Shown here piece by piece: positions 3,611-20,622 of a stretch of DNA of 27,943 nucleotides (the stretch's first letter is position 1; each line of letters begins with the position of its first letter). Origin of the DNA: a virus. A program made the translations under genes and the position numbers. Location of the stretch: positions 1 to 27,943 of IMG/VR virus record IMGVR_UViG_3300044653_000031. One strand, 5' to 3'. The notes beneath the pieces are model-generated. The model searched no databases. It saw only the letters and a list, made by a program, of their open reading frames with translations, and had not been told where the DNA came from.

Positions 3611-3644
3611 GTTGCGCTTTTTTAACATCAAAAAGGGGAATCAA

Positions 3645-4772
3645 ATGGCAAGCATAACCGAAATCAAGGGCAAATTCCGCGCCCAAATCCGCCGCGCTGG
3701 TCATCCGTCCGTTGCCAGCACATTCGACAGCCGCGCTGAAGCCGAAAAGTGGGTCACCCTGCAAGAGGCCGAAATCATCAAGGGCAACAAGATCGGCAAG
3801 CAAGGCAAGTCCGGCATCAAATTCACTGACGCCATCGACAAGTACATCGAAGTCAAGGGCGACCTGAGCAAAACCTACATTACCATGTTGCGCAAAATTC
3901 AGCGTGTCATGGGCCACTTGATGGTGGACAAAATGACGGATGAGGATATCGTCAAGTACATCCGCGAAAAAAGCAGCGGCCCAGTGACCAACAAGATGCA
4001 CCTTGGCGTGATCGGCCAAGTTCTGCAAATGTGCCGCCACGGCTGGAAGTACCACGTTCAGCATGACATCATGAAAATTGCCTACACGCAATTGAAAATG
4101 CTCAAGCTGGTCGGCAGTTCCCCGGCGCGGGATCGCCGCCCGACGAACGAAGAAATCGCCATGCTGTGTGCCCATCCGTGGCCGTCAAAAATCCCCATGG
4201 CCGAAATCATCATGTTCGCCATCCACAGCGCCATGCGGCAATCCGAAATCACGCGCATCCGCTGGGCAGACTTCGATGAAATCGACATGACAACCCGGAT
4301 CACCGACCGGAAAGACCCCCGCGCCAAGAAGGGCAATAATTGCACCGTGCCCTTGTTGGCCGAAGCCATCGAGATTATCAAGCGTCAACCGCGTACCGGA
4401 TCGCAATTTGTTTTCCCATACAGCGCACATACGATATCATGCCTTTTCAGCGCCGAAGTGCCGAAAATGGGCATCGAAAACCTGCATTTCCACGACTTGC
4501 GCCATGAAGGGGCTAGTCGGTTGTTCGAAATGGGGTATCAAATCCCCCAGGTCGCGCTATTCACCGGGCACAAGACGTGGAGCCAATTGGCGCGTTATAC
4601 CCAGTTGAAGGCCAAAGACTTGCGCAGGCCGGGAGCGCCAAAGGGCGAATTGCGGGCTGTCCCCGATCCGGCCAAGGTCGGGACAAGCACGGAAATCGAT
4701 GAAGCGGAATACAAGGAATTTTTGCAGTTCAAGGCCATGAAAAAGCTGATGGAGCAACAGCAAGCGGCGTAA
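3645..4772 (+). CDS. int: Phage integrase, tyrosine recombinase family
   Basis: This 375-residue site-specific recombinase would integrate and excise the phage genome. The ATG at 3645 is chosen over an upstream TTG because AAAAGGGG lies just ahead of it. The N-terminal 60 residues look like an arm-binding domain, about 60-150 is a core-binding SAM-like domain, and the catalytic domain follows. The catalytic set is complete: R198 (AMRQSEITRIRW), a candidate K near 229, H283 and R286 (HDLRH), H309 (FTGHK) and the nucleophile Y318 (ARYTQL). A charged tail of about 50 residues follows. Intact motifs and normal length suggest an active enzyme. It ends at a strong terminator. Confidence 0.95.
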   Translation: MASITEIKGKFRAQIRRAGHPSVASTFDSRAEAEKWVTLQEAEIIKGNKIGKQGKSGIKFTDAIDKYIEVKGDLSKTYITMLRKIQRVMGHLMVDKMTDEDIVKYIREKSSGPVTNKMHLGVIGQVLQMCRHGWKYHVQHDIMKIAYTQLKMLKLVGSSPARDRRPTNEEIAMLCAHPWPSKIPMAEIIMFAIHSAMRQSEITRIRWADFDEIDMTTRITDRKDPRAKKGNNCTVPLLAEAIEIIKRQPRTGSQFVFPYSAHTISCLFSAEVPKMGIENLHFHDLRHEGASRLFEMGYQIPQVALFTGHKTWSQLARYTQLKAKDLRRPGAPKGELRAVPDPAKVGTSTEIDEAEYKEFLQFKAMKKLMEQQQAA

Positions 4773-9287: not shown

Positions 9288-9731
9288 TTAATACGCGCCA
9301 CCGAACGCGGTAACGATCAAGGCCGTCGTCGTCGCCGTCGTGGTCACAGTGGTCGCCGCATAAAGCGCATAGGTCGACGGCAACACCAGATTGGTATATT
9401 GGTGAAAGGCGTTGAATGCGGGCGCGACGGTCGACGGAATGGTCGCGGTAACGACGATTTCATCGATCACCCATGCGGTCGTGCCGTCCCACAGCCAGAT
9501 CAAGACAGTTTGCGCGGCGGTCGTGGCGGTGATCGCGCTGGATGCGCCCTGCACTTGAATGCGGTCAATGCGGATGCCGTTGGTGGAAACCGGGACCAGC
9601 GAGAAAATGTTTGCGCCAGCAAGCGAGGCTGTGACGGTCGGCGCACGTGTGGCGCAAGCGGTAACCGCAGTCAGATTGCAGGAATTTGCATACGGCGTGA
9701 GGGGGTAAATCGGTGCGGTATTTGCTGCCAC
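9288..9731 (-). CDS. Beta-rich virion-type protein (GTG start)
   Basis: The codon at the start is GTG, backed by a clear AAGGAG ribosome site eight bases upstream. The 147-residue product is almost entirely beta-branched and small residues: MAANTAPIYPLTP, then RIDRIQVQGASSA, VLIWLWDGT and a Thr/Ala-rich end. This layout is familiar to me from small phage proteins found beside capsid, fibre and glycine-rich genes, without a proven role. It overlaps nothing and lies two bases before the glycine-rich gene, so they are likely made together. Confidence 0.7.
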   Translation of the reverse strand: MAANTAPIYPLTPYANSCNLTAVTACATRAPTVTASLAGANIFSLVPVSTNGIRIDRIQVQGASSAITATTAAQTVLIWLWDGTTAWVIDEIVVTATIPSTVAPAFNAFHQYTNLVLPSTYALYAATTVTTTATTTALIVTAFGGAY

Positions 9732-9745
9732 ATTGTTCTCCTTGG

Positions 9746-10201
9746 TTAAAGTCCTTGCGCGCTTTTGTAGCGCGAGTCATTGACGTACACAGTCCACGAC
9801 GCGAAGCTGTTCCGCGTCGTCAGAAAGTAAATTGGCTGTCCACCGGGTTGCCCCGGCAAGACACTGGAAAGACCGGCCTGCACAATCGCGGCCATGGTGG
9901 CGATTTGGTTGGTATTGGTGCCGGTCGGAAGCGTGACGGCGGTTGAGGTCGAATCGATGCTGACGCCGGTAAGCGTGCCGCCAGTGATGTTCGGGGCGGT
10001 CAAATCCCAGTCCACAACGGTCAACCCACTGGGCAACGAGACCAGCGCGTTTAGCGCGGTGATGTCATTATTGACGCCACTTGCGGCAGCATTTGCATTG
10101 ACGTTCGACGCGATGGCGTTCAAGTCGGTCATGACCTGACCACCATCCGCGACGTTCCCGTTCACAAGCTGAATCGGAAGCGGTAGAGATACGATTGGCA
10201 T
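9746..10201 (-). CDS. Short fibre-like protein
   Basis: This 151-residue protein has an N-terminal helical part with many Asn and Ala (LNAIASNVNANAAASGVNNDI), then beta-repeat-like text (NITGGTLTGVSIDSTS) and a C-terminal region. The TGGTLTGVSI pattern resembles the triple-stranded beta segments of phage tail fibres. It is the first gene after the terminator at 10215-10240 and starts the fibre-lysis group. Too short to be a whole receptor-binding fibre, it may be an adaptor or a trimeric stub. Confidence 0.65.
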   Translation of the reverse strand: MPIVSLPLPIQLVNGNVADGGQVMTDLNAIASNVNANAAASGVNNDITALNALVSLPSGLTVVDWDLTAPNITGGTLTGVSIDSTSTAVTLPTGTNTNQIATMAAIVQAGLSSVLPGQPGGQPIYFLTTRNSFASWTVYVNDSRYKSAQGL

Positions 10202-10256: not shown

Positions 10257-11564
10257 TCAGTAACTCAGGGTCTTGCAATAACCCAATCGATGCAGTTCGG
10301 GCAGTTCCTTTTGCAGGCGCTTGCCGATATCCGTGCGATAGCCTGGGCTGTTTGGAATGCTGATGCCGTCAATGACTTCATAGGCTTTTTTCGCGGACGC
10401 AGAGACCGTATTGCCGATGCCAGTAACGACCAGCAAATAATTTCCGGCCGAAACCCAGGTCGGCAAATCGATTACCTTGTTCCCGACCACATGCGCAGCC
10501 ACCCCGGCCATGATTTCGCAAGGATGGATATGTTCGTTTTGATCGCAGTAGATCGGAATGCCCGTCAGATTTTCACGCGGGAGTTTGTTGTAGGGGAAGT
10601 CAGGCATCGTCACCACAACCCCGGTACAGACGCCTTTCTTGACTTGCAACGTATCGTACCCGCGCATCAAATCCAAAATCCATTCAACCGGATCACCCTC
10701 ATGCAGTGACGTGATGATTTGGAAGTGGGGCCATCCAGGGCGCGCTGTGAACTCCAAGGGCCAAGGGTTGCCGTCTTTATCGATGATCACCGCGACATCG
10801 ATATAACCGGTGTATCCGATGCTTTCCAGATAGGGCGAAATCGGCAGCAGCACTTTCTCTGCCAATTTTTCTTTATCGGTGTAATAAATCACCGTTCCCT
10901 GTTCGCCGGTATTGCAACCCAGGTCATCGTTCAGGTGCTTTTTGTGTTCGAAGTTGATGTTGAACTGCGACGACCAACCATGGGGGCCGAACCACCCGCC
11001 AACTGCCACTTCAATCCCTGGTTGAAATTCCTGAAGGATGAACGGACCGGCGAGAACCTTTTTCTTCTTCCAGCGACGGAGCATTTCAATCATGTCGCCC
11101 GAATGCTTGGAGACGTATGACAATGCCTTATCAGCATCACCGCTTGGCTTCGATACCCAGCGTTTCCCAGCGTTCTTTTCTACAAAACGAATCGCATCGT
11201 CGTATGACGTGAACGTCTTGTAATCCATGATCGGAACGCCCGCGTCCTTCCAGACTTTTTGACCAAGCGTGCGATTCAATTCCATTTCCGCACCCTTGAC
11301 GTTCGGCCCGAAAATCGGACAACCGAGTTTGCGGAAGGGTTCGAGTTGCGACATATAGCGTGTGTTGTCTGCTGTGATAACCAGATCAGTCAACCCCACC
11401 CACTTTTGCCATTCCTTGACCTTTTCGATCAAGCCATCGCCGACCGGCAGACGTTCGCCGTTCTTACCGGGAGCGATGAACCAACGAACAGTGTGTCCGT
11501 GGGCTGCGCAACGCAAAGCGAAGTCGAGGAAATTACCCCCGACATCCAGCAACAAAATCCGCAT
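10257..11564 (-). CDS. PurD-like ATP-grasp ligase
   Basis: This 435-residue protein (ATG at 11564, AGGAG upstream) has the length and domain order of phosphoribosylamine-glycine ligase. The N-terminal Rossmann part starts MRILLLDVGGNFLDFAL. The ATP-grasp core has K139 (VSKPSGD), the FILQEF strand (175-180), an HKKHLNDDLGCNTG block (208-220) like the PurD DHKR...DGDxGPNTGG motif, and EFTARPG (271-277) in place of the usual ExNxRFGDPE. The C-terminal part keeps the PurD features VTGIGNTVSASAKKAYE and YRTDIGKRL. PurD joins phosphoribosylamine and glycine with ATP. The changed substrate and metal motifs suggest a different substrate here. Its position among ejection and fibre genes is unusual for purine synthesis. 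Confidence 0.85.
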   Translation of the reverse strand: MRILLLDVGGNFLDFALRCAAHGHTVRWFIAPGKNGERLPVGDGLIEKVKEWQKWVGLTDLVITADNTRYMSQLEPFRKLGCPIFGPNVKGAEMELNRTLGQKVWKDAGVPIMDYKTFTSYDDAIRFVEKNAGKRWVSKPSGDADKALSYVSKHSGDMIEMLRRWKKKKVLAGPFILQEFQPGIEVAVGGWFGPHGWSSQFNINFEHKKHLNDDLGCNTGEQGTVIYYTDKEKLAEKVLLPISPYLESIGYTGYIDVAVIIDKDGNPWPLEFTARPGWPHFQIITSLHEGDPVEWILDLMRGYDTLQVKKGVCTGVVVTMPDFPYNKLPRENLTGIPIYCDQNEHIHPCEIMAGVAAHVVGNKVIDLPTWVSAGNYLLVVTGIGNTVSASAKKAYEVIDGISIPNSPGYRTDIGKRLQKELPELHRLGYCKTLSY

Positions 11565-11572
11565 GCAGACTC

Positions 11573-13237
11573 CTATTGCCCAATGGGCGGTTTCGGGATC
11601 ATGTAGGGACCGAGACGATTGTAAAGATTGGCAGCACCCCACACGCCACCGGCAGTAGCCGGGTTAATGGCCGTACCGCCACCCAGGAGTCCATACGCGG
11701 CCATGCGTTCAGCAGTACCAGAAGATGGTGGCGGTTTCATGATGCGCTGCCCGATCCGAGCAAGATCGCCAAGATCGCCGCCCTCACCACGGGCCATGCG
11801 CGCCTTGCCAGCATCGTTCGCCGTCACGCGCCCCATGAGACCAGGGCCGGAAATATCCCCCGTATCCGATTTGGCGACAAGCGGTTCAATCGTCTTGCCT
11901 TTGGCGTATTGCATCTTGGCTTCTTTGTATGCGCCCACTTTATCGGCAGGGAGGGATTTCTCCTTGGCGTCTTGGAGCATGTCTTGCAGATCGCTCAAAG
12001 CGCTGCGCAGTTCGGTGTTTCCACCTGACGCACGAATCTGCCGACCCAGCATCGAATCGAAATTCTTGAAGGTCTCGCCATCGATAGAGCCGTTCTTGAT
12101 CGCGCCCTTAATTTCTTTGGCGTAGTTGTTCACAATTCGACCAACATCTGCGGTTTGGTACTTCTTCACATCGCCAAGATAGCCATCGAGTTCGGATTTC
12201 GCGTCCGCGCCAAATTTGACGTTATGATCCATGCCGATATCGCCAATCAAGCCGCCAGACTTATCCATCGCGGCCTTGAACACATCCGGGGTCAAACGTT
12301 CTGCCTTGGAATCGCCGCCAATTTGCTTGATCAGCGCTTGATTGAAGGCGGTTTGGCGTGCGCCCTCTTTGGAGCCGGACAAGGGCACTTTTTCCAGCGC
12401 CTCGCCCATCATTTTCGCAATTTTGTTGTTGTAGATCATGTCCGGGCGAACGGGAATGCCATACGACTGGGCCTTCTGCGCCAACTTCACCGCTTCCGGG
12501 TCGGCCTTCACCGCCATCTTGATCTTTTCAGGGACTTCGGCAGCGGCCCTCAGAGCCGCATTACCGGTTTCCGCTGCCTTGTCTAGGCCGCGCACAACCG
12601 GACCCACCACGGGCGCTTTTGCGGCCTTGTCGACGCCTTTATCGACCAACGCAAGCCCTTTGTTCAGACCGGACCCAATGGCGTCGGCTGTTTGACCGGC
12701 TTTTGCGATTGCCGGATAGGCATAAGGCTTCATGTTTCGCAACGCACTTGCCGTTCCGGCGACTTCCGGCCCCAATGCAGGGATGCCACCGACAAAACCT
12801 TGGACCGCATCTGAACCCATCACATCGCCAAGCTTTTTCGTCAGGTTCTGGCCCATTTCGGTACGCGGGCGGTAGCTCAGTTCATCTTGAACCTTGTCAC
12901 CGATCCCGGACCTTCCGCCAGTGAAGACATCGGCCCACGCGCCAAGCAATGTCCCCGCCGACCCGGTTGCCGCCGCGACCGGCGTTTCAACCAGCCCAAT
13001 GGCGTCTTCTTTCTTCTTCAAAATCTGGTCATTCAGCGCATCGTGATACATGGAGAGACCGGATTGACCAGAATTTTCCTTGGCTTCTTCGGCCTTCTTC
13101 ATGTACTCCGCTTGGCTCAGGCGCGGCGCGGATTTTTTTGCGGGCGTGTCATCAACTGGCTTCGCCGATGCCAAATCGAATTTACCCTTGGTCGGCGCGT
13201 CATCGACGGGCTGTGCGCTTGCAAGATCGAATGACAT
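11573..13237 (-). CDS. Large ejection-type internal virion protein
   Basis: This 554-residue protein is mostly predicted helix and rich in Ala, Lys, Gly and Asp. It begins with two tandem copies of FDLASA(Q/K)PVDD (residues 3-13 and 20-30), a pattern I associate with phage internal virion or DNA-transfer proteins. Several Gly/Ala-rich, potentially membrane-active stretches follow (about 90-190 and at the C-terminus, YGLLGGGTAINPATAGG). It is in the classic place of short-tailed-phage ejection proteins, after the tail genes, and its start overlaps the previous gene in a TAATG junction. No catalytic motif is visible. Confidence 0.7.
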   Translation of the reverse strand: MSFDLASAQPVDDAPTKGKFDLASAKPVDDTPAKKSAPRLSQAEYMKKAEEAKENSGQSGLSMYHDALNDQILKKKEDAIGLVETPVAAATGSAGTLLGAWADVFTGGRSGIGDKVQDELSYRPRTEMGQNLTKKLGDVMGSDAVQGFVGGIPALGPEVAGTASALRNMKPYAYPAIAKAGQTADAIGSGLNKGLALVDKGVDKAAKAPVVGPVVRGLDKAAETGNAALRAAAEVPEKIKMAVKADPEAVKLAQKAQSYGIPVRPDMIYNNKIAKMMGEALEKVPLSGSKEGARQTAFNQALIKQIGGDSKAERLTPDVFKAAMDKSGGLIGDIGMDHNVKFGADAKSELDGYLGDVKKYQTADVGRIVNNYAKEIKGAIKNGSIDGETFKNFDSMLGRQIRASGGNTELRSALSDLQDMLQDAKEKSLPADKVGAYKEAKMQYAKGKTIEPLVAKSDTGDISGPGLMGRVTANDAGKARMARGEGGDLGDLARIGQRIMKPPPSSGTAERMAAYGLLGGGTAINPATAGGVWGAANLYNRLGPYMIPKPPIGQ

Positions 13238-15032: not shown

Positions 15033-16412
15033 TTAATTCCCGCCATAGCCGAAGTCAGTGCCACCGCTGACGCCAATCGAGTTCACGTTTCCGCCGTTAT
15101 AAGCGCCCGCATTGGTGCCGCCGTTCCATGTATTCCACAAGCTGGAAACGCCGTTGCCCAGGCTATTGCCGAGGCCGGAATTGCTGAAAGCCGAGCCGAG
15201 TTGGTTCATGTTGCTCATCATCTGGTTTTGATTCGCCATGTTTTGCGACCAGCCGACTTGCTGCGCACCGGACGCATAGTTGTTGTAACCCAGCGCGTTC
15301 GACATCAGTTGATTGTTTCCAGACAAATAGGCCGTCTGATCGCTGTTGTACCCGGTGATCGCGTTTTGCTGATTGCCGTAAATCGTCTGGTTGGCGTTGT
15401 ATGGTTCTGCCCCGGCATTCTGATATGCGCCAGCGGCGGTGTTAGCCAGCCCCGTGGCAGAGTTGTAGGTATTGGCTAGACCTTGAGCACTCAAGTTTGC
15501 GTTGGTCGCCTGTGCGTTCAAATAACCGGTGTACTGTTGTTCTGCCGCGCCGGTCAGGTTCGCATAGTTTGAATTCTCTGCGGTCTGCAATCCAGACTGC
15601 GCTCCAGCGTAATTCGTGCCCTGGCCCAGCGCGGACGAATAGGCACCGGAGGCCGAAGACAAACCAGATTGTTCACGCGCAAGCTGCTGGTTGTTCCAGT
15701 TCAGTTGAAATTGTTGGTCTGCGTTGGCTTGGACTGATGCACCATAAGGCGTGTTCTCAATACCACGCGAATATTCCGCCGCGTTGGTCGCGTCATTCAA
15801 TTGGCTCAGGTTGTTCGCATAAAGGGCGTTTTGCGGGTCGAAAGCGGACTGCAAAACCGAGTTCGCGGCGGAATTCAAGTTGTTTTCAGAGTTCGCCACG
15901 CTTCCATACTGGGAACCAAGTTGGTTTTGCAGGGTGGAATAGTTCTGGTTCGAGGACGTGCCCATGCCGTAGAGCGTGTTCGTGGCGTTCTGGACATTGC
16001 CGAAGTTCGCGTTGTAGTCGCTCTGCATTTGCGATGCGTTCGCGGCCATCTGATTGCCATAGCCCTGCAAAGTATTCGCGTCGGCAGTACCCAAACTGCC
16101 TGCTTGGTTGTAGGCATTTGCCGAATTTTCTGCGCCCTGCATCAACCCGCTGTTGTAGGGGTTGCTCATTTGGCTGTTGAACAAGCTGGTTGCGTACGGG
16201 CTGGTCAGCGCCTGATTTGCGTTCACCGAGTTCATGTAATTCGAATATTCGGTGTTGAAATTCGCATACATGCCAGCTTGATTCGTCGGCTGATAGACCT
16301 GGGGCGCACTACCCCCGCTGGTCCCGCCGCCGTTCCCGCTACCGGAACTGGAATTGAGAAAGTGACCTGCCACCGCGCTCACAAGTCCACCTACTGCTGC
16401 TGTCCACGGCAT
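15033..16412 (-). CDS. Lysine-free Asn/Gln/Ser/Ala/Tyr-rich virion protein
   Basis: This 459-residue protein has an extreme composition: very rich in Asn, Gln, Ser, Ala, Gly and Tyr, with no lysine, no cysteine and only two arginines by my reading. The N-terminus (PWTAAVGGLVSAVAGHFL) is hydrophobic, like the membrane-active end of ejection proteins; the middle is helical heptad-like; the C-terminus is Gly/Asn-rich. It begins 22 bases inside the end of the sulfotransferase-like gene and precedes two other internal virion proteins. I take it as the first of three ejection proteins. Its Tyr and Asn content makes it a candidate target for the adjacent enzymes, but this is only inference. Confidence 0.7.
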   Translation of the reverse strand: MPWTAAVGGLVSAVAGHFLNSSSGSGNGGGTSGGSAPQVYQPTNQAGMYANFNTEYSNYMNSVNANQALTSPYATSLFNSQMSNPYNSGLMQGAENSANAYNQAGSLGTADANTLQGYGNQMAANASQMQSDYNANFGNVQNATNTLYGMGTSSNQNYSTLQNQLGSQYGSVANSENNLNSAANSVLQSAFDPQNALYANNLSQLNDATNAAEYSRGIENTPYGASVQANADQQFQLNWNNQQLAREQSGLSSASGAYSSALGQGTNYAGAQSGLQTAENSNYANLTGAAEQQYTGYLNAQATNANLSAQGLANTYNSATGLANTAAGAYQNAGAEPYNANQTIYGNQQNAITGYNSDQTAYLSGNNQLMSNALGYNNYASGAQQVGWSQNMANQNQMMSNMNQLGSAFSNSGLGNSLGNGVSSLWNTWNGGTNAGAYNGGNVNSIGVSGGTDFGYGGN

Positions 16413-16918
16413 AGCGCTCCCTTTCGAATAAGGTCAAACATGATGTTCACGTTGGGTTTCCACTTTCTGAGGTCCGGCTGCACCTGCATTTCGCACAAGT
16501 ACCTGTATCGCTCTGGATCGAAGGGAATGTCGGGCAATAAAAAAGACCACATTTCTGTGGCCTTCTTTTGATCCCATAAATCTTTGTATCGGTATCGTCT
16601 GCCGCGTGCGGCCCGGAATTTATCGAGCATTTCCCCGGAAATCCCGCCCATGCCTATCGCATGCAAACTGTCATTGATGTCGCAGACATCACGGTCGATC
16701 AGGATCGTCGGACAGTTCTGTCGCTCCAGCCATTCGGGGAACATGAACGCCCCGGTACATGAAATGCCGATGCGCTTTTTTGATTGGTATTCATCCACGT
16801 CCAACGGGTACATATACGAAAACGGATCGTGTATGCACAAGGTGTTGTCGGTAGTCAGGAAATTGGCAAGCCATGTACTCCCTGATCGAGGGAGACTCAA
16901 CACCATGAATTCAATCAT
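16391..16918 (-). CDS. Small sulfotransferase-like protein
   Basis: This 175-residue protein starts with MIEFMVLSLPRSGSTWLANF. The LPRSGSTWL segment (9-17) matches the PAPS 5'-phosphosulfate-binding loop of sulfotransferases, and IDRDVCDINDSLHAIG (74-89, R76 and S84) resembles the 3'-phosphate-binding region. These enzymes transfer sulfate from PAPS to a hydroxyl or amine group. It is shorter than most (about 250-300 residues), so it may be a minimal form. It overlaps the hydroxylase-like gene by eight bases and the next virion gene by 22. An alternative ATG at 16906 would spoil little. A terminator-like hairpin lies within the coding sequence. Confidence 0.75.
   Translation of the reverse strand: MIEFMVLSLPRSGSTWLANFLTTDNTLCIHDPFSYMYPLDVDEYQSKKRIGISCTGAFMFPEWLERQNCPTILIDRDVCDINDSLHAIGMGGISGEMLDKFRAARGRRYRYKDLWDQKKATEMWSFLLPDIPFDPERYRYLCEMQVQPDLRKWKPNVNIMFDLIRKGALCRGQQQ
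16539..16562 (-). terminator. Terminator-like hairpin inside the sulfotransferase gene
   Basis: On the minus strand GGCCACA (16562-16556) pairs with TGTGGTC (16551-16545), one pair being a G-T wobble, around a GAAA tetraloop and is followed by six T. It has the form of an intrinsic terminator but lies in coding sequence about 130 bases before the next gene, so it could reduce expression of the ejection genes or be neutral under ribosome cover. Confidence 0.4.
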
Positions 16919-17486
16919 CGGTCTTCATGCAGATAATGAGGGTCATGCGGTCGTCGTTGCTGTTGTTGATCACTTCGTGTTCGACGTGATTATTGAAGTA
17001 CCAGCACTCCCCGGTCTTCATCGAAACGAATTCGTCATCACATCGGTTCACGCAGCCCGGAAGGCTCAGCAGAGGCACATACAGCTTGCAGTTGTAGAAA
17101 TCGGCGTGCCAACCACGGTCGACGTGAGGGTCGACCTTTCCGCCAGAAGGAATTTTGGTGATCAAGATGCCGCCCAAGTGGGTCGCGCCCATTTTCGCCA
17201 TCAAACCCAATGCGATTTGCCGGATGCTCGGCAGTATTTCGATTGCCGGATACCAGATCGGGAAGTGTTCGTCGTTGAACTTCGAATAGTCCCCGCTTCG
17301 CTTGGCGTCCGTGTCGTCGTTGTAGCGCACCCAAATATCTGACATCTGCGTATGGGGGGAATTGCCATGCTTTCGCAAGGTTCTCTGATCCCATAAGTCC
17401 GGGTTTTGCAATATGGCGAGCGTGATCGGTTCGACGTTAATGCCGTCGCATATCTTGAGAAAGTTCTTCACATTCCAGAAGACCAT
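16911..17486 (-). CDS. Aspartyl/asparaginyl hydroxylase-like 2-oxoglutarate oxygenase
   Basis: This 191-residue protein resembles the aspartyl/asparaginyl beta-hydroxylase family of iron/2-oxoglutarate dioxygenases. It has ITKIPSGGKVDPHVDRGWHADFY (109-131) with the likely iron ligands H121 and D123, KLYVPL strands, then the closing CWYFNNHVEHEVINNS with a distal His (H167 or H170) and R180 (DDRMTLII) suited to bind 2-oxoglutarate. The set needed for catalysis is therefore present. These enzymes hydroxylate Asp, Asn or other residues in proteins, or small molecules. The start overlaps the preceding low-complexity gene by 19 bases and the end overlaps the sulfotransferase-like gene by eight, so the pair is tightly coupled. 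Confidence 0.83.
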   Translation of the reverse strand: MVFWNVKNFLKICDGINVEPITLAILQNPDLWDQRTLRKHGNSPHTQMSDIWVRYNDDTDAKRSGDYSKFNDEHFPIWYPAIEILPSIRQIALGLMAKMGATHLGGILITKIPSGGKVDPHVDRGWHADFYNCKLYVPLLSLPGCVNRCDDEFVSMKTGECWYFNNHVEHEVINNSNDDRMTLIICMKTDD

Positions 17487-18322
17487 GGGCCATAAGAAGT
17501 GCCGGGGTTGTAACCGGTATTGCCGGGGTTGATCGTGCCGCCCTGTGGGCTTCCCAAGGTGCTGGGTTGACCGGCAAAGGCACCGAGATTTCCCGCAGCG
17601 GGATTACCCGTCATGTTGACGGGGCCGCTCATCGTAGTGCGCGACGGATAGGGCGCACCGCCCATGCTTGCGGTAGAACCCAAGTTAGCCGAACCGCCGA
17701 AATTCCCGCCTTGCGGGCCACCATATCCACCCAAGCCCCCACCCGACGACATGCCGGGATAAGCGCTCATGCTCATCCCGTTACCGTTGAAACCGCCGCC
17801 CATATTCGAGCCGTAACCTGGGTAAGCGCCCCCCATGCCTTGCACACCATTCATGCCGCTTTGCTGGCCGTACATCGGCCCCTGAACAGGAAAGGAGCCG
17901 TTGAAGCCGCCTTGCTGGGAACCGACCATCGTTGTCTGGCCTTGGCCGTTCATGCCCTGCATGCCGTTATTGCGGCGATACCCGCCGTTCTGCCCACCGG
18001 GGCGCGCCACATTACCAAAACGTTGCGGCGTTTGCAGTTGTCCCGACTGTCCACCGCCAGACGGCACGAAGTTGGGGTTAGTACCGGGGCCGTTCAGTGA
18101 TGGATTGCTGACGGGCATAGCGGTCGGGCCACCGTTGGCGACCGCGCTGCCCTGCGGCGTGCCGTTCCAAAAATTGCTTTCGCCCGCATTGGCCTTCGCC
18201 AACGCCGCCATGAAAGCAGGACTGGGTTGACCGCCACCCGACATGCCACTGATCGTTCCGTTCCCTGCATTCGAAGAATTGATACTGTTCATCAAAGGGG
18301 AAGCCAGCATCGAGCCGTACAT
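17468..18322 (-). CDS. Gly/Asn/Met/Ser-rich low-complexity protein
   Basis: This 284-residue protein is built of Gly, Asn, Ser, Met, Pro, Gln and Tyr with short GMxG-, GG-, NG- and YPG-like units, one lysine and almost no acidic residues. No folded domain is visible beyond the first 45 residues (PAFMAALAKANAG helix). The ATG at 18322 has AAGGAAA upstream. It lies between the nozzle-like tail gene and the hydroxylase-like gene, whose start it overlaps, and is probably a virion or assembly protein of disordered type. No family is recognised. Confidence 0.65.
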   Translation of the reverse strand: MYGSMLASPLMNSINSSNAGNGTISGMSGGGQPSPAFMAALAKANAGESNFWNGTPQGSAVANGGPTAMPVSNPSLNGPGTNPNFVPSGGGQSGQLQTPQRFGNVARPGGQNGGYRRNNGMQGMNGQGQTTMVGSQQGGFNGSFPVQGPMYGQQSGMNGVQGMGGAYPGYGSNMGGGFNGNGMSMSAYPGMSSGGGLGGYGGPQGGNFGGSANLGSTASMGGAPYPSRTTMSGPVNMTGNPAAGNLGAFAGQPSTLGSPQGGTINPGNTGYNPGTSYGPWSSGM

Positions 18323-18331
18323 AGATTTTCC

Positions 18332-19945
18332 TTAAGCGTTGGTGTAACCCAGTGTCTGCACACGCAGTTGCGTCTCTTTAACCGAGACGTTTTCAGCGGC
18401 AAGCACCAAAACAGAGAGAACCATTTTTTTGAAGACAACCGGGTTCACCCAAGGAATGGAGAACACTTGACTGTTTGTGATGCTGGAGCGCCATTGGAAT
18501 TGCGCCCAGCGGTTCACGCCCCAAATTGGGTCCACGGCATACAACGAAATCGTCGCAGGGGACAGGGCGTTGTTCTTGTCGTCGTACATTGAAATGTAGT
18601 AACTGACGCCAAGACCGGCACCGCCCAATTCGATGGTCGACTCAACGACTGCGCTCATCGTCATCGGCGCACCAGCCATGCAGGTGCTGACAAGTTGGCA
18701 GAAATAATTGTTACCAAAATCCTGATACACGGTCTCGCCGGTCGGAACGACAGCGCTGGAAAAGATTTGGCCGTAGATGTTATTGTTGGCGAGATAAAAG
18801 TTATTTCCCGCCGCGCAAATCTGGTGATACTGAAACGTATGCGGCCCATTCCAGCGCTGGAAGATCAAGTCATACCAATATTCTTGAAACGTGACTTGCG
18901 TATCCCATATTTGCGCAGGACCATCGAAACCAACACGATAGATTCCATTGGCGAACGCAGCACTCATTCTTGATGGTGTGATCGCCGCATTGAATGCTGA
19001 AACGAGGTCTGGCGTGGGCGTATCGAAGTTTTGCAGGTACAAAACCTGACCCGAGAAATTAATGATGCGCGGACCATCTGTGGCGATGAAGATAATCCCA
19101 ATGGGAGTTGCTTCGATGGTCAGCGGCGCAACACATCCGATATTTTGAGAAAGGCGATTCAACGAAAGGGTGTTTTCCGTAATATCGCCGGTAATACACC
19201 AAATCGAATCTTGTTTGAACACGCACAATGCTTGCAGTACTGCGCCCGACGTTTGCGATAGAGGAAGGCCCGCCGCGCCTGTTGATGGAGCCAGATCGGC
19301 GATGGTCAAGACGCCAGCAAAGTTCGTGTTGCTAATGGTAAGTGCGAGAGAGTCAGTGAAATAAACGGCATTGCCCACACCGAAATAAGCGCGACCGAAA
19401 AATTGCGCCACCCACTGGGGCGGCGTCGGCAAAGCGTTGGTCCCCGTGTTCCCTGCGCTCCACGTCGGGACGGTCGGCGTCGTGAGATTGAACCAACCGA
19501 AAAAATTTGGCGACGAAAAGCCCGGATGCGTCACGATGACGTAAATACCCAAGGCATCCATCGTCGGCGGCACCCAAGCACCTGTGGTGGGCTGAGTTAC
19601 CGGCACGTTCGCCGCAGTCACCCCTTGGACAACATAGAACGTCTGCGTAGCTTCGTTCCAAACAAACGGTTCGTCATATCCGGGGAACCGTTGGGACGCG
19701 ACCATGCCATAAATGATGTCCCCGGACTGGAACATGCACGAAATCGGTCCCGGAACGGTAAAAAGCGGCACGAAACTCTGCACCGGAACCACACCGGGCC
19801 GAGCAATCGCCGCGCCGCGATTATCCCGGTCGAAAATCAGGTTTTGCAACAACTGACACGCACCATTGAACGCCGACGATTGATCGAACGCATCGCTTGT
19901 GCCGGTCGGGAAAAAACTGACGGGGGTGGAATTGCGGATTGGCAT
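18332..19945 (-). CDS. Tail nozzle/stabilisation-like protein (beta-propeller type)
   Basis: The ATG at 19945 overlaps the adaptor stop (TAATG), so I prefer it over an upstream TTG. The 537-residue product is all-beta in pattern, with repeated strands and turns such as WVAQFFGRAYFGVGNAVYFTDS, CVFKQDSIWCITGD and GIIFIATDGPRIINFSG, as expected for a propeller. In P22- and T7-like phages the proteins right after the adaptor (gp10 or tubular/nozzle proteins) have this layout and close the portal channel. Location after the adaptor supports this. The N-terminal RPGVVPVQSF motif fits. Assignment is by architecture, not by a specific motif. Confidence 0.75.
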   Translation of the reverse strand: MPIRNSTPVSFFPTGTSDAFDQSSAFNGACQLLQNLIFDRDNRGAAIARPGVVPVQSFVPLFTVPGPISCMFQSGDIIYGMVASQRFPGYDEPFVWNEATQTFYVVQGVTAANVPVTQPTTGAWVPPTMDALGIYVIVTHPGFSSPNFFGWFNLTTPTVPTWSAGNTGTNALPTPPQWVAQFFGRAYFGVGNAVYFTDSLALTISNTNFAGVLTIADLAPSTGAAGLPLSQTSGAVLQALCVFKQDSIWCITGDITENTLSLNRLSQNIGCVAPLTIEATPIGIIFIATDGPRIINFSGQVLYLQNFDTPTPDLVSAFNAAITPSRMSAAFANGIYRVGFDGPAQIWDTQVTFQEYWYDLIFQRWNGPHTFQYHQICAAGNNFYLANNNIYGQIFSSAVVPTGETVYQDFGNNYFCQLVSTCMAGAPMTMSAVVESTIELGGAGLGVSYYISMYDDKNNALSPATISLYAVDPIWGVNRWAQFQWRSSITNSQVFSIPWVNPVVFKKMVLSVLVLAAENVSVKETQLRVQTLGYTNA

Positions 19946-20622
19946 TACCAAGAACCCTGCAACTTCGTCGGGCGCACTTTGCGCACCGACTTGAACGCAC
20001 GCGGGTCTTTCTCCACGATGATGGCGCGATTTTCGCGGTCGTTCGACATCTGGATCAGGCGGCGGAACTTTTCATCGTTCTGCTGGAACATCATTTCTAC
20101 TCGCGTATCGTCCGAAATCGACATCAGGTCTTCGGCGATCATCTTGACCAACAGAAGTTGATCTTGGAACCATGGCACGGTCTGCGAATTTTCCGGCGTC
20201 GGAATTTCGACGTTGTTGTCCATGTAACGGATGTTCAGCGTGAAAGCGAGCGACGGCGGCGGGTAGAGCAAGAGCGTGGGCGGCGTGGTGCCGATGTCCG
20301 TAGAGTAGTAATACGGGTAGTCAGTCAGGCCGGGGTTGGTGTTCAACTGGTCGTAGTCCTTCAACGCCAGTTGAATCAGCCAAAACACAGACCCATTGAT
20401 GTTGTAGAACGCCTCCCGCATACGCAAATAATTCACCGGCAATTCATACGCGACTTGACCGGTGATGACATTGATTTCCGTCGTGCGACGAATGATGTCC
20501 ATATCCTGTTCAAGCGCCAATTGAATCAGCCGCGCATTCATAAACTGCCCGGCCTGTTGGACCATGCCGGGAGTTTTGGCGATTTGCGTGGCGAGTGAAA
20601 TCATCTGCGTTGCGGTCAGCAT
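19945..20622 (-). CDS. Head-tail adaptor protein
   Basis: This 225-residue protein begins with a helical bundle (TQMISLATQIAKTPGMVQQAGQFMNARLIQLALEQDMDIIRRT) followed by a beta-like part (GQVAYELPVNYLRMREAFYN and LLLYPPPSLAFTLNIRYM) and a C-terminal helix with many charges. This is the arrangement of P22 gp4/T7 gp11-like gatekeepers that bind below the portal. It lies between a coiled-coil head gene and the nozzle-like gene, and is linked to both by TAATG overlaps, which fits a stepwise head-completion operon. Confidence 0.82.
   Translation of the reverse strand: MLTATQMISLATQIAKTPGMVQQAGQFMNARLIQLALEQDMDIIRRTTEINVITGQVAYELPVNYLRMREAFYNINGSVFWLIQLALKDYDQLNTNPGLTDYPYYYSTDIGTTPPTLLLYPPPSLAFTLNIRYMDNNVEIPTPENSQTVPWFQDQLLLVKMIAEDLMSISDDTRVEMMFQQNDEKFRRLIQMSNDRENRAIIVEKDPRAFKSVRKVRPTKLQGSW

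Follow-up and report, generated by a model that had tools for sequence, protein, structure and literature searches.

We analysed the complete IMG/VR virus record IMGVR_UViG_3300044653_000031 (positions 1 to 27,943; this 27,943-base stretch is called the window below) and found that two small adjacent genes, encoding a 2-oxoglutarate (2OG) oxygenase-like protein and a short sulfotransferase-like protein, lie directly upstream of E1, the first gene of a DNA-ejection module (E1-E2-E3). This cassette appears to be one form of an enzyme slot placed just upstream of the ejection genes of P22-like short-tailed phages. The slot enzymes are exchanged between phages, and residue 2 of the E1 protein tracks them. 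We give about even chances to the explanation that the slot enzymes modify the N-terminus of E1, with the oxygenase hydroxylating Pro2 and the sulfotransferase acting on the same virion module. A preliminary description of this DNA had pointed to the flanking low-complexity virion proteins as targets; from the sequence comparisons, residue 2 of E1 appears to be a sharper one.

Recurrence and partner exchange of the enzyme slot

Relatives were gathered from viral contigs using single proteins and alignments. A first contig scan with the window oxygenase as the single query found nothing, and the E2 alignment was too divergent for a census scan. We found the oxygenase and sulfotransferase genes adjacent, in both gene orders, in many viral contigs, directly upstream of a gene whose product starts MPW, MPA or MPI and which is followed by two larger genes. 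The expected recurrence of the pair beside virion genes was thus borne out. The proteins downstream of the cassette in these relatives match phrog_598 (DNA ejection), P22_gp7 and phrog_26400 (DNA ejection). An E1-type gene follows downstream, at a distance of no more than 1.5 kb, for 150/165 oxygenases, 118/128 cupins, 16/17 GNATs and 52/89 sulfotransferases. The distance between enzyme and E1 is 5 bases or less in 187 of 236 cases.

A second census (66 loci) was seeded on the conserved gene upstream of the cassette, called the stopper by position only, and not on the enzymes. One of four slot enzymes was present in 48/66 loci: a cupin in 24, a GNAT in 13, sulfotransferase with oxygenase in 6, oxygenase with GNAT in 2, oxygenase in 2, and oxygenase with cupin in 1. 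Of the 18 loci with none of these four, most hold a helical protein of phrog_21390, and one holds a fusion of a cupin and a SET domain. The phrog_21390 proteins are small and helical-looking, carry a DDLxD/DDWRD motif and gave no Pfam match; they occupy the slot before E1 in L286 (7840-8271), L113 (10507-10965) and L135 (10506-10982), and some directly follow a sulfotransferase. The fusion in L273 (1280-2089; SET domain 8.5e-9, phrog_34170) suggests, by its sequence, a protein-methylating slot enzyme. The slot is filled from a small set, namely 2OG oxygenase, mini-sulfotransferase, cupin (once SET-fused), GNAT and, once, a methyltransferase. Slot cupins also match phrog_12032 (short tail fiber protein) and phrog_24280 (tail fiber adhesin), names that are probably misleading. 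HNH-like open reading frames (ORFs) lie between oxygenase and E1 in L211 (4603-5064) and L214 (10483-10962).

Beside the oxygenase, the slot partners replace one another. The neighbour of 124 non-redundant oxygenases was a cupin in 64, a sulfotransferase in 37, a GNAT in 4 and none of these in 19; sampling was seeded in part on the sulfotransferase, which inflates its share. Two partners were found in 0/124, against 19 expected from chance overlap (hypergeometric 5e-16, a statistic that ignores relatedness), and the partner labels need 25 changes on the maximum-likelihood oxygenase tree. The window oxygenase belongs to a supported clade of 30 members, in which the other 29 carry a cupin in the sulfotransferase's place; its nearest relatives, L006 and L016 (63-66% identity), have a cupin as well. 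The window sulfotransferase is nearest to the oxygenase-then-sulfotransferase group (49% to L095). These sequences indicate that the sulfotransferase replaced a cupin partner in the window lineage.

Among 50,697 deposited phage records searched by tblastn, 3 contain the oxygenase and 48 the sulfotransferase, and no record holds both. Prophage-like copies were found in bacterial genomes of Variovorax, Undibacterium, Cupriavidus, Paraburkholderia and a Rhodanobacteraceae. Sulfotransferases without an oxygenase are located beside ejection genes and also among DNA-metabolism genes of siphophages. The locus L010 (PQ492659) is the 39-kb Limnohabitans phage DC33, filed under Inoviridae. The size of DC33, together with an oxygenase-GNAT pair that Pseudomonas phage PfAn1 has too, suggests a tailed phage.

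Residue 2 of E1 and the slot enzymes

E1 starts were taken as the ATG nearest the profile start, chosen blind to residue 2. By this choice, 154/156 E1 proteins from loci with an oxygenase and without a GNAT have Pro2; the count is 155/156 after L175 was corrected by hand to a clear GTG-Pro start, with L211, which has no clear E1 start, counted as the exception. Residue 2 is Ser or Thr in 23/24 cupin-only loci, Ala in 11/13 GNAT-only loci and Pro in phrog_21390 loci. All the residue-2 types seen, except Phe, permit removal of the start Met.

The same difference was observed between loci with an identical gene adjoining E1. Next to a cupin, residue 2 is Pro in 84/84 loci with an oxygenase versus Ser/Thr in 23/24 without one; next to a sulfotransferase, Pro2 is found in 17/17 with an oxygenase versus 9/20 without. 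All four Pro codons are used at codon 2, and Pro persists in E1 families that differ greatly from one another, with variation from residue 3 onward (MPW, MPA, MPI, MPF, MPL, MPY). Most loci have no reading-frame overlap, and such an overlap was therefore rejected as the origin of Pro2. As a control, E2 proteins from the same loci have Pro2 in only 19/127 (15%) and 5/59 (8%).

We also placed the changes on a tree of E1 bodies without their first 15 residues. Sister rows switch jointly in enzyme and residue: L270 (oxygenase and cupin, Pro) versus L271 (oxygenase and GNAT, Val), and L286 (phrog_21390, Pro) versus L287 (GNAT, Ala). Sign tests on independent pairs gave about 6 to 0 for oxygenase without GNAT versus Pro (p 0.03), 6 to 0 for cupin-only versus Ser/Thr (p 0.03) and 4 to 0 for GNAT versus Ala/Val. 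Oxygenase or phrog_21390 versus Pro, a grouping chosen after the data were seen, gave about 9-10 to 0 (p 0.002-0.004). With GNAT phages included, oxygenase versus Pro was not significant on this tree (p 0.125). In a fresh sample from two further scans, which the Pro prediction preceded, Pro2 was found in 31/31 loci with an oxygenase and no GNAT. Loci with both oxygenase and GNAT had Pro2 in 0/72 and Val in 61, a class with only two clear cases before.

The window enzymes and their gene neighbourhood

The oxygenase matches Pfam Asp_Arg_Hydrox (E=2.8e-11, 44 bits versus a cut-off of 22.6). The protein has the residues first noticed in it (H121, D123, R180 and a distal His, which is H170), and these are unchanged in 49/49 relatives, as are R38, H45, D50, R54, H74, W126, H127, K134, N166 and N174. 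In its AlphaFold2 model (predicted local distance difference test, pLDDT, 95.9) the metal triad H-x-D...H and the 2OG-binding Arg lie on a double-stranded beta-helix; Foldseek returned L-proline cis-4-hydroxylase 4p7w first (E 3.8e-9), then AspH (8.5e-8). The best solved relatives by profile are the proline hydroxylases 4P7W (5.5e-4) and 1E5R (1.3e-3), both of which act on free proline. Sequence and model identify the protein as an Fe(II)/2OG oxygenase of the Asp_Arg_Hydrox family, with predicted hydroxylase activity. Because relatives such as L006 begin MRNFMKV... where the window reads VKNFLKI..., its start is probably GTG 17471. The overlap with the upstream ORF, nominally 19 bases as first described, is therefore probably a 4-base GTGA; the overlaps of 8 bases between the two enzyme genes and of 22 bases between the sulfotransferase-like gene and E1 stand.

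The sulfotransferase-like protein belongs to phrog_10855 (E=2.8e-34). P10, R11, W16, H30 and R76 are found in 52/52 relatives and S84 in 49/52, and residue 31 is Asp (D31) or Glu in all 52. By sequence, the PRSGSTW loop and R76-x7-S84 are the two motifs that bind 3'-phosphoadenosine-5'-phosphosulfate (PAPS), nearly invariant in the 52 sequences, and the conserved residues of both enzymes indicate that the active sites are kept. Pfam Sulfotransfer_3 is sub-threshold on the window protein (E 0.018, 15.8 bits versus a cut-off of 27) and is matched by 21/52 relatives (best E 5e-6). Foldseek on the AlphaFold2 model (pLDDT 93.5) gave sulfotransferases at the top, but weakly (E 5.8e-4, query TM-score, TMq, 0.38-0.58), and P-loop kinases also matched. 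A P-loop NTPase/kinase identity was rejected by motif (no Walker A Lys, R-x7-S present), not by fold alone. The oxygenase fold came out as guessed in the preliminary description, and the sulfotransferase fold probably did, with a weak match. Catalysis is likely, judging from motifs and model. In L001 an HNH endonuclease-like ORF (9406-10008; the same in L002-L004) opens with a copy of the sulfotransferase 5'-phosphosulfate-binding segment and sits directly upstream of the intact sulfotransferase.

Profile searches show that the window encodes podovirus-type head, portal, adaptor and ejection genes, and an integrase is located at 3612-4772. The minus strand holds all four ORFs of the preliminary description at the positions it gave (Table 1). 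The ejection genes follow in the order E1-E2-E3. E1 lies upstream of a gp16-type ejection protein, the position of P22 gp7-type proteins, and gave no direct profile match to phrog_598 or PF25688; hhalign against phrog_598 gave a probability of 34% over 18 columns only. The starts of the sulfotransferase (MIEFMVLS) and of E1 (MPW) are conserved in relatives.

The idea of two flanking low-complexity virion proteins held in part. E1 (N 17%, S 12%, Y 6.5%) is conserved and occupies the place of the first ejection protein. For the 17468-18322 product (G 26%, S 11%, N 11%, Y 3.5%) no relatives turned up in the loci searched, and the near relative L006 lacks it, the upstream gene there being followed directly by the oxygenase; the product is at most a putative virion protein. 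E1 proteins of oxygenase phages contain more Asn and Ser, and their upstream protein likewise has more Asn and Pro; Asn/Tyr enrichment as a sign of the oxygenase substrate was rejected as confounded by this rise in Asn. A PurD-like ATP-grasp protein (GARS_A/GARS_C) directly follows the last ejection gene (window 10257-11642, minus strand; L006 15492-16799; L007 14857-16191), with relatives in 73/170 loci, and is possibly another modifying enzyme of the ejection module.

Table 1. Features of the cassette and its neighbours in the window
Feature	Position	Strand	Basis
Conserved 539-aa protein upstream of the cassette (stopper, by position only)	18332..19951	-	61-65% identity in L006/L016, where it abuts the oxygenase
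284-aa Gly/Asn/Ser-rich protein	17468..18322	-	ORF; no relatives in loci searched, absent in L006
2OG/Fe(II) oxygenase-like protein; 186 aa with the likely GTG start, 191 aa with ATG 17486	16911..17471	-	Asp_Arg_Hydrox, AlphaFold2 model, PDB matches, L006 alignment
HxD metal ligands H121 and D123 of oxygenase	17118..17126	-	49/49 conserved
Distal metal ligand H170 of oxygenase	16977..16979	-	49/49 conserved
R180 of oxygenase, expected 2OG carboxylate ligand	16947..16949	-	49/49 conserved
Short PAPS-sulfotransferase-like protein, 175 aa	16391..16918	-	phrog_10855, AlphaFold2 model, weak PDB matches to sulfotransferases
Predicted 5'-phosphosulfate-binding loop PRSGSTW, residues 10-16 of sulfotransferase-like protein	16871..16891	-	P10, R11, W16 in 52/52
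Predicted 3'-phosphate-binding motif R76...S84 of sulfotransferase-like protein	16667..16693	-	R 52/52, S 49/52
E1, first ejection-module protein, 459 aa, MPWTAAVGG...	15033..16412	-	43% identity to L006 E1; slot of phrog_598 / P22_gp7 proteins in relatives
Codon 2 of E1, CCG (Pro), proposed target residue	16407..16409	-	Pro2 statistics in oxygenase loci
E2, second ejection-module protein, 597 aa	13237..15030	-	Position; relatives in 75 loci
E3, DNA ejection protein, 554 aa	11573..13237	-	phrog_26400, 1.6e-36

Proposed modification of E1 and comparison with known systems

Ejection proteins build the channel used by short-tailed phages for DNA delivery. The most probable role of the slot enzymes, we propose, is to modify the E1 N-terminus ahead of packaging of the protein into the head. 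E1 begins Met-Pro-Trp...; loss of the start Met would expose the Pro, which the oxygenase would hydroxylate. GNAT-bearing phages would acetylate an Ala/Val N-terminus of E1 instead; N-terminal Pro is a poor acetylation substrate, and the absence of Pro in GNAT loci is consistent with this. The sulfotransferase, in place of a cupin here, would have its target somewhere in the same virion module. A broader reading, to which we give somewhat less than even odds, is that interchangeable enzymes mark the N-terminus of an ejection protein that enters the host envelope, each with a different group (hydroxyproline, acetyl, sulfate, possibly methyl), with enzyme and first residue co-evolving as a code. 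Such a code would perhaps match host envelopes or protect the exposed end.

Several observations weigh against modification of E1. Residue 2 is not fixed in sulfotransferase-only phages (P9 A6 F4 G1), phrog_21390 phages have Pro2 without an oxygenase, and phages with oxygenase plus GNAT have Val. The window E1 has no clear profile tie to phrog_598, its role being read from position and the identity to L006 E1, and the sulfotransferase-like protein matches known folds weakly, P-loop kinases among them. The E1 tree was built quickly from a gappy alignment. Finally, the slot gene and the E1 5' end are physically linked, so that both can be transferred by a single crossover, and in one clade some 15 residues at the start of E1 change together with the enzyme.

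These last two points favour the main rival, in which the enzymes act elsewhere and residue 2 tracks them only by linkage, the slot gene and the E1 5' end being exchanged together. The two genes abut or overlap, as the short distances between them show. We nevertheless regard this explanation as unlikely, because residue 2 follows the oxygenase even where the adjacent gene is identical, several different Pro codons are used, Pro is retained in E1 families whose residues from 3 onward vary, and the fresh sample was uniformly Pro. Slightly less probable again is that the enzymes serve small molecules or the host, the oxygenase hydroxylating, for example, free proline or another metabolite and the sulfotransferase adding sulfate to a signalling molecule or a surface molecule of the host, with late expression by convenience. 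The free amino acid substrates of the closest solved oxygenase relatives and the siphophage DNA-metabolism copies of the sulfotransferase family fit this, but the consistent placement beside E1 across diverse phages and hosts, the exchange with GNAT, SET and cupin at this place, and the residue-2 association do not. The two-step scheme of the preliminary description, in which hydroxylation first makes an OH (for example at E1 Pro2 or an E1 Asn/Asp) and the sulfotransferase adds sulfate to it, is improbable: the pair occurs in both orders, in 37/124 oxygenases, and has arisen more than once, but each enzyme also occurs alone in the same slot, most oxygenase phages have a cupin, a GNAT or no partner instead, neither cupin nor GNAT is known to make a sulfate ester, and the Asn enrichment of E1 is not specific.

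Modification of the E1 N-terminus makes a residue-level prediction, with Pro2 hydroxylated and Ala/Val acetylated. If true, it would provide a function for a phage sulfotransferase family now labelled nucleotide triphosphate (NTP) hydrolase and for phage 2OG oxygenases, and it may shed light on T7 gp13, whose role is unexplained.

In the literature searched, we found no phage-encoded sulfotransferase acting on virions, no hydroxylase plus sulfotransferase cassette and no description of enzymatic modification of ejection proteins; in an ejection-protein review (PMC8954989) the words post-translational, acetyl, hydroxyl and sulfat are absent. Published accounts list phage 2OG oxygenases and sulfotransferases among metabolic genes whose role is unclear (PMC10580990, PMC3037559). 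In the OM43 phage paper both enzymes are described for that lineage of phages, and the sulfotransferase function is called unclear. Cyanophages encode 2OG-Fe(II) oxygenases, some annotated as asparaginyl beta-hydroxylase, but these are T4-like phages, and the role proposed in print relates to 2OG/nitrogen metabolism of the host and not to ejection proteins (PMC3037559).

The proline hydroxylases 4P7W and 1E5R are closest to the phage oxygenase by profile, and 4P7W also by fold, but identity is 14% and the phage substrate is a prediction. AspH shares the curated Asp_Arg_Hydrox match and the fold; the phage enzyme differs in its size (186-191 aa), lacks the TPR and membrane parts and keeps HxD. 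With PAPS sulfotransferases (SULT, TPST) the phage protein shares the 5'-phosphosulfate-binding loop, the R-x7-S motif and its best fold matches, but it has 175 aa versus about 260-330, a C-terminal PAPS-binding part is not recognised, and the fold score is weak. The phrog_10855 "hydrolase" or putative nucleotide triphosphate hydrolase of Pseudomonas phages PaMx28 and NP1 is of the same family (30-36% identity), but its gene lies among DNA-metabolism genes, without an oxygenase.

The closest positional parallel comes from GNATs next to internal virion proteins: SIO1 pc40 (cobaviruses) was compared with T7 gp13, and a role in morphogenesis was proposed (PMC6775973). There, too, a small gene immediately precedes the one for the first internal virion protein (T7 gene 13 before 14). 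T7 gp13 matches only PF11090, and a Pfam profile search of the two window enzymes gave no match to a GNAT or PF11090 domain; the window has an oxygenase plus a sulfotransferase in this place, not a GNAT.

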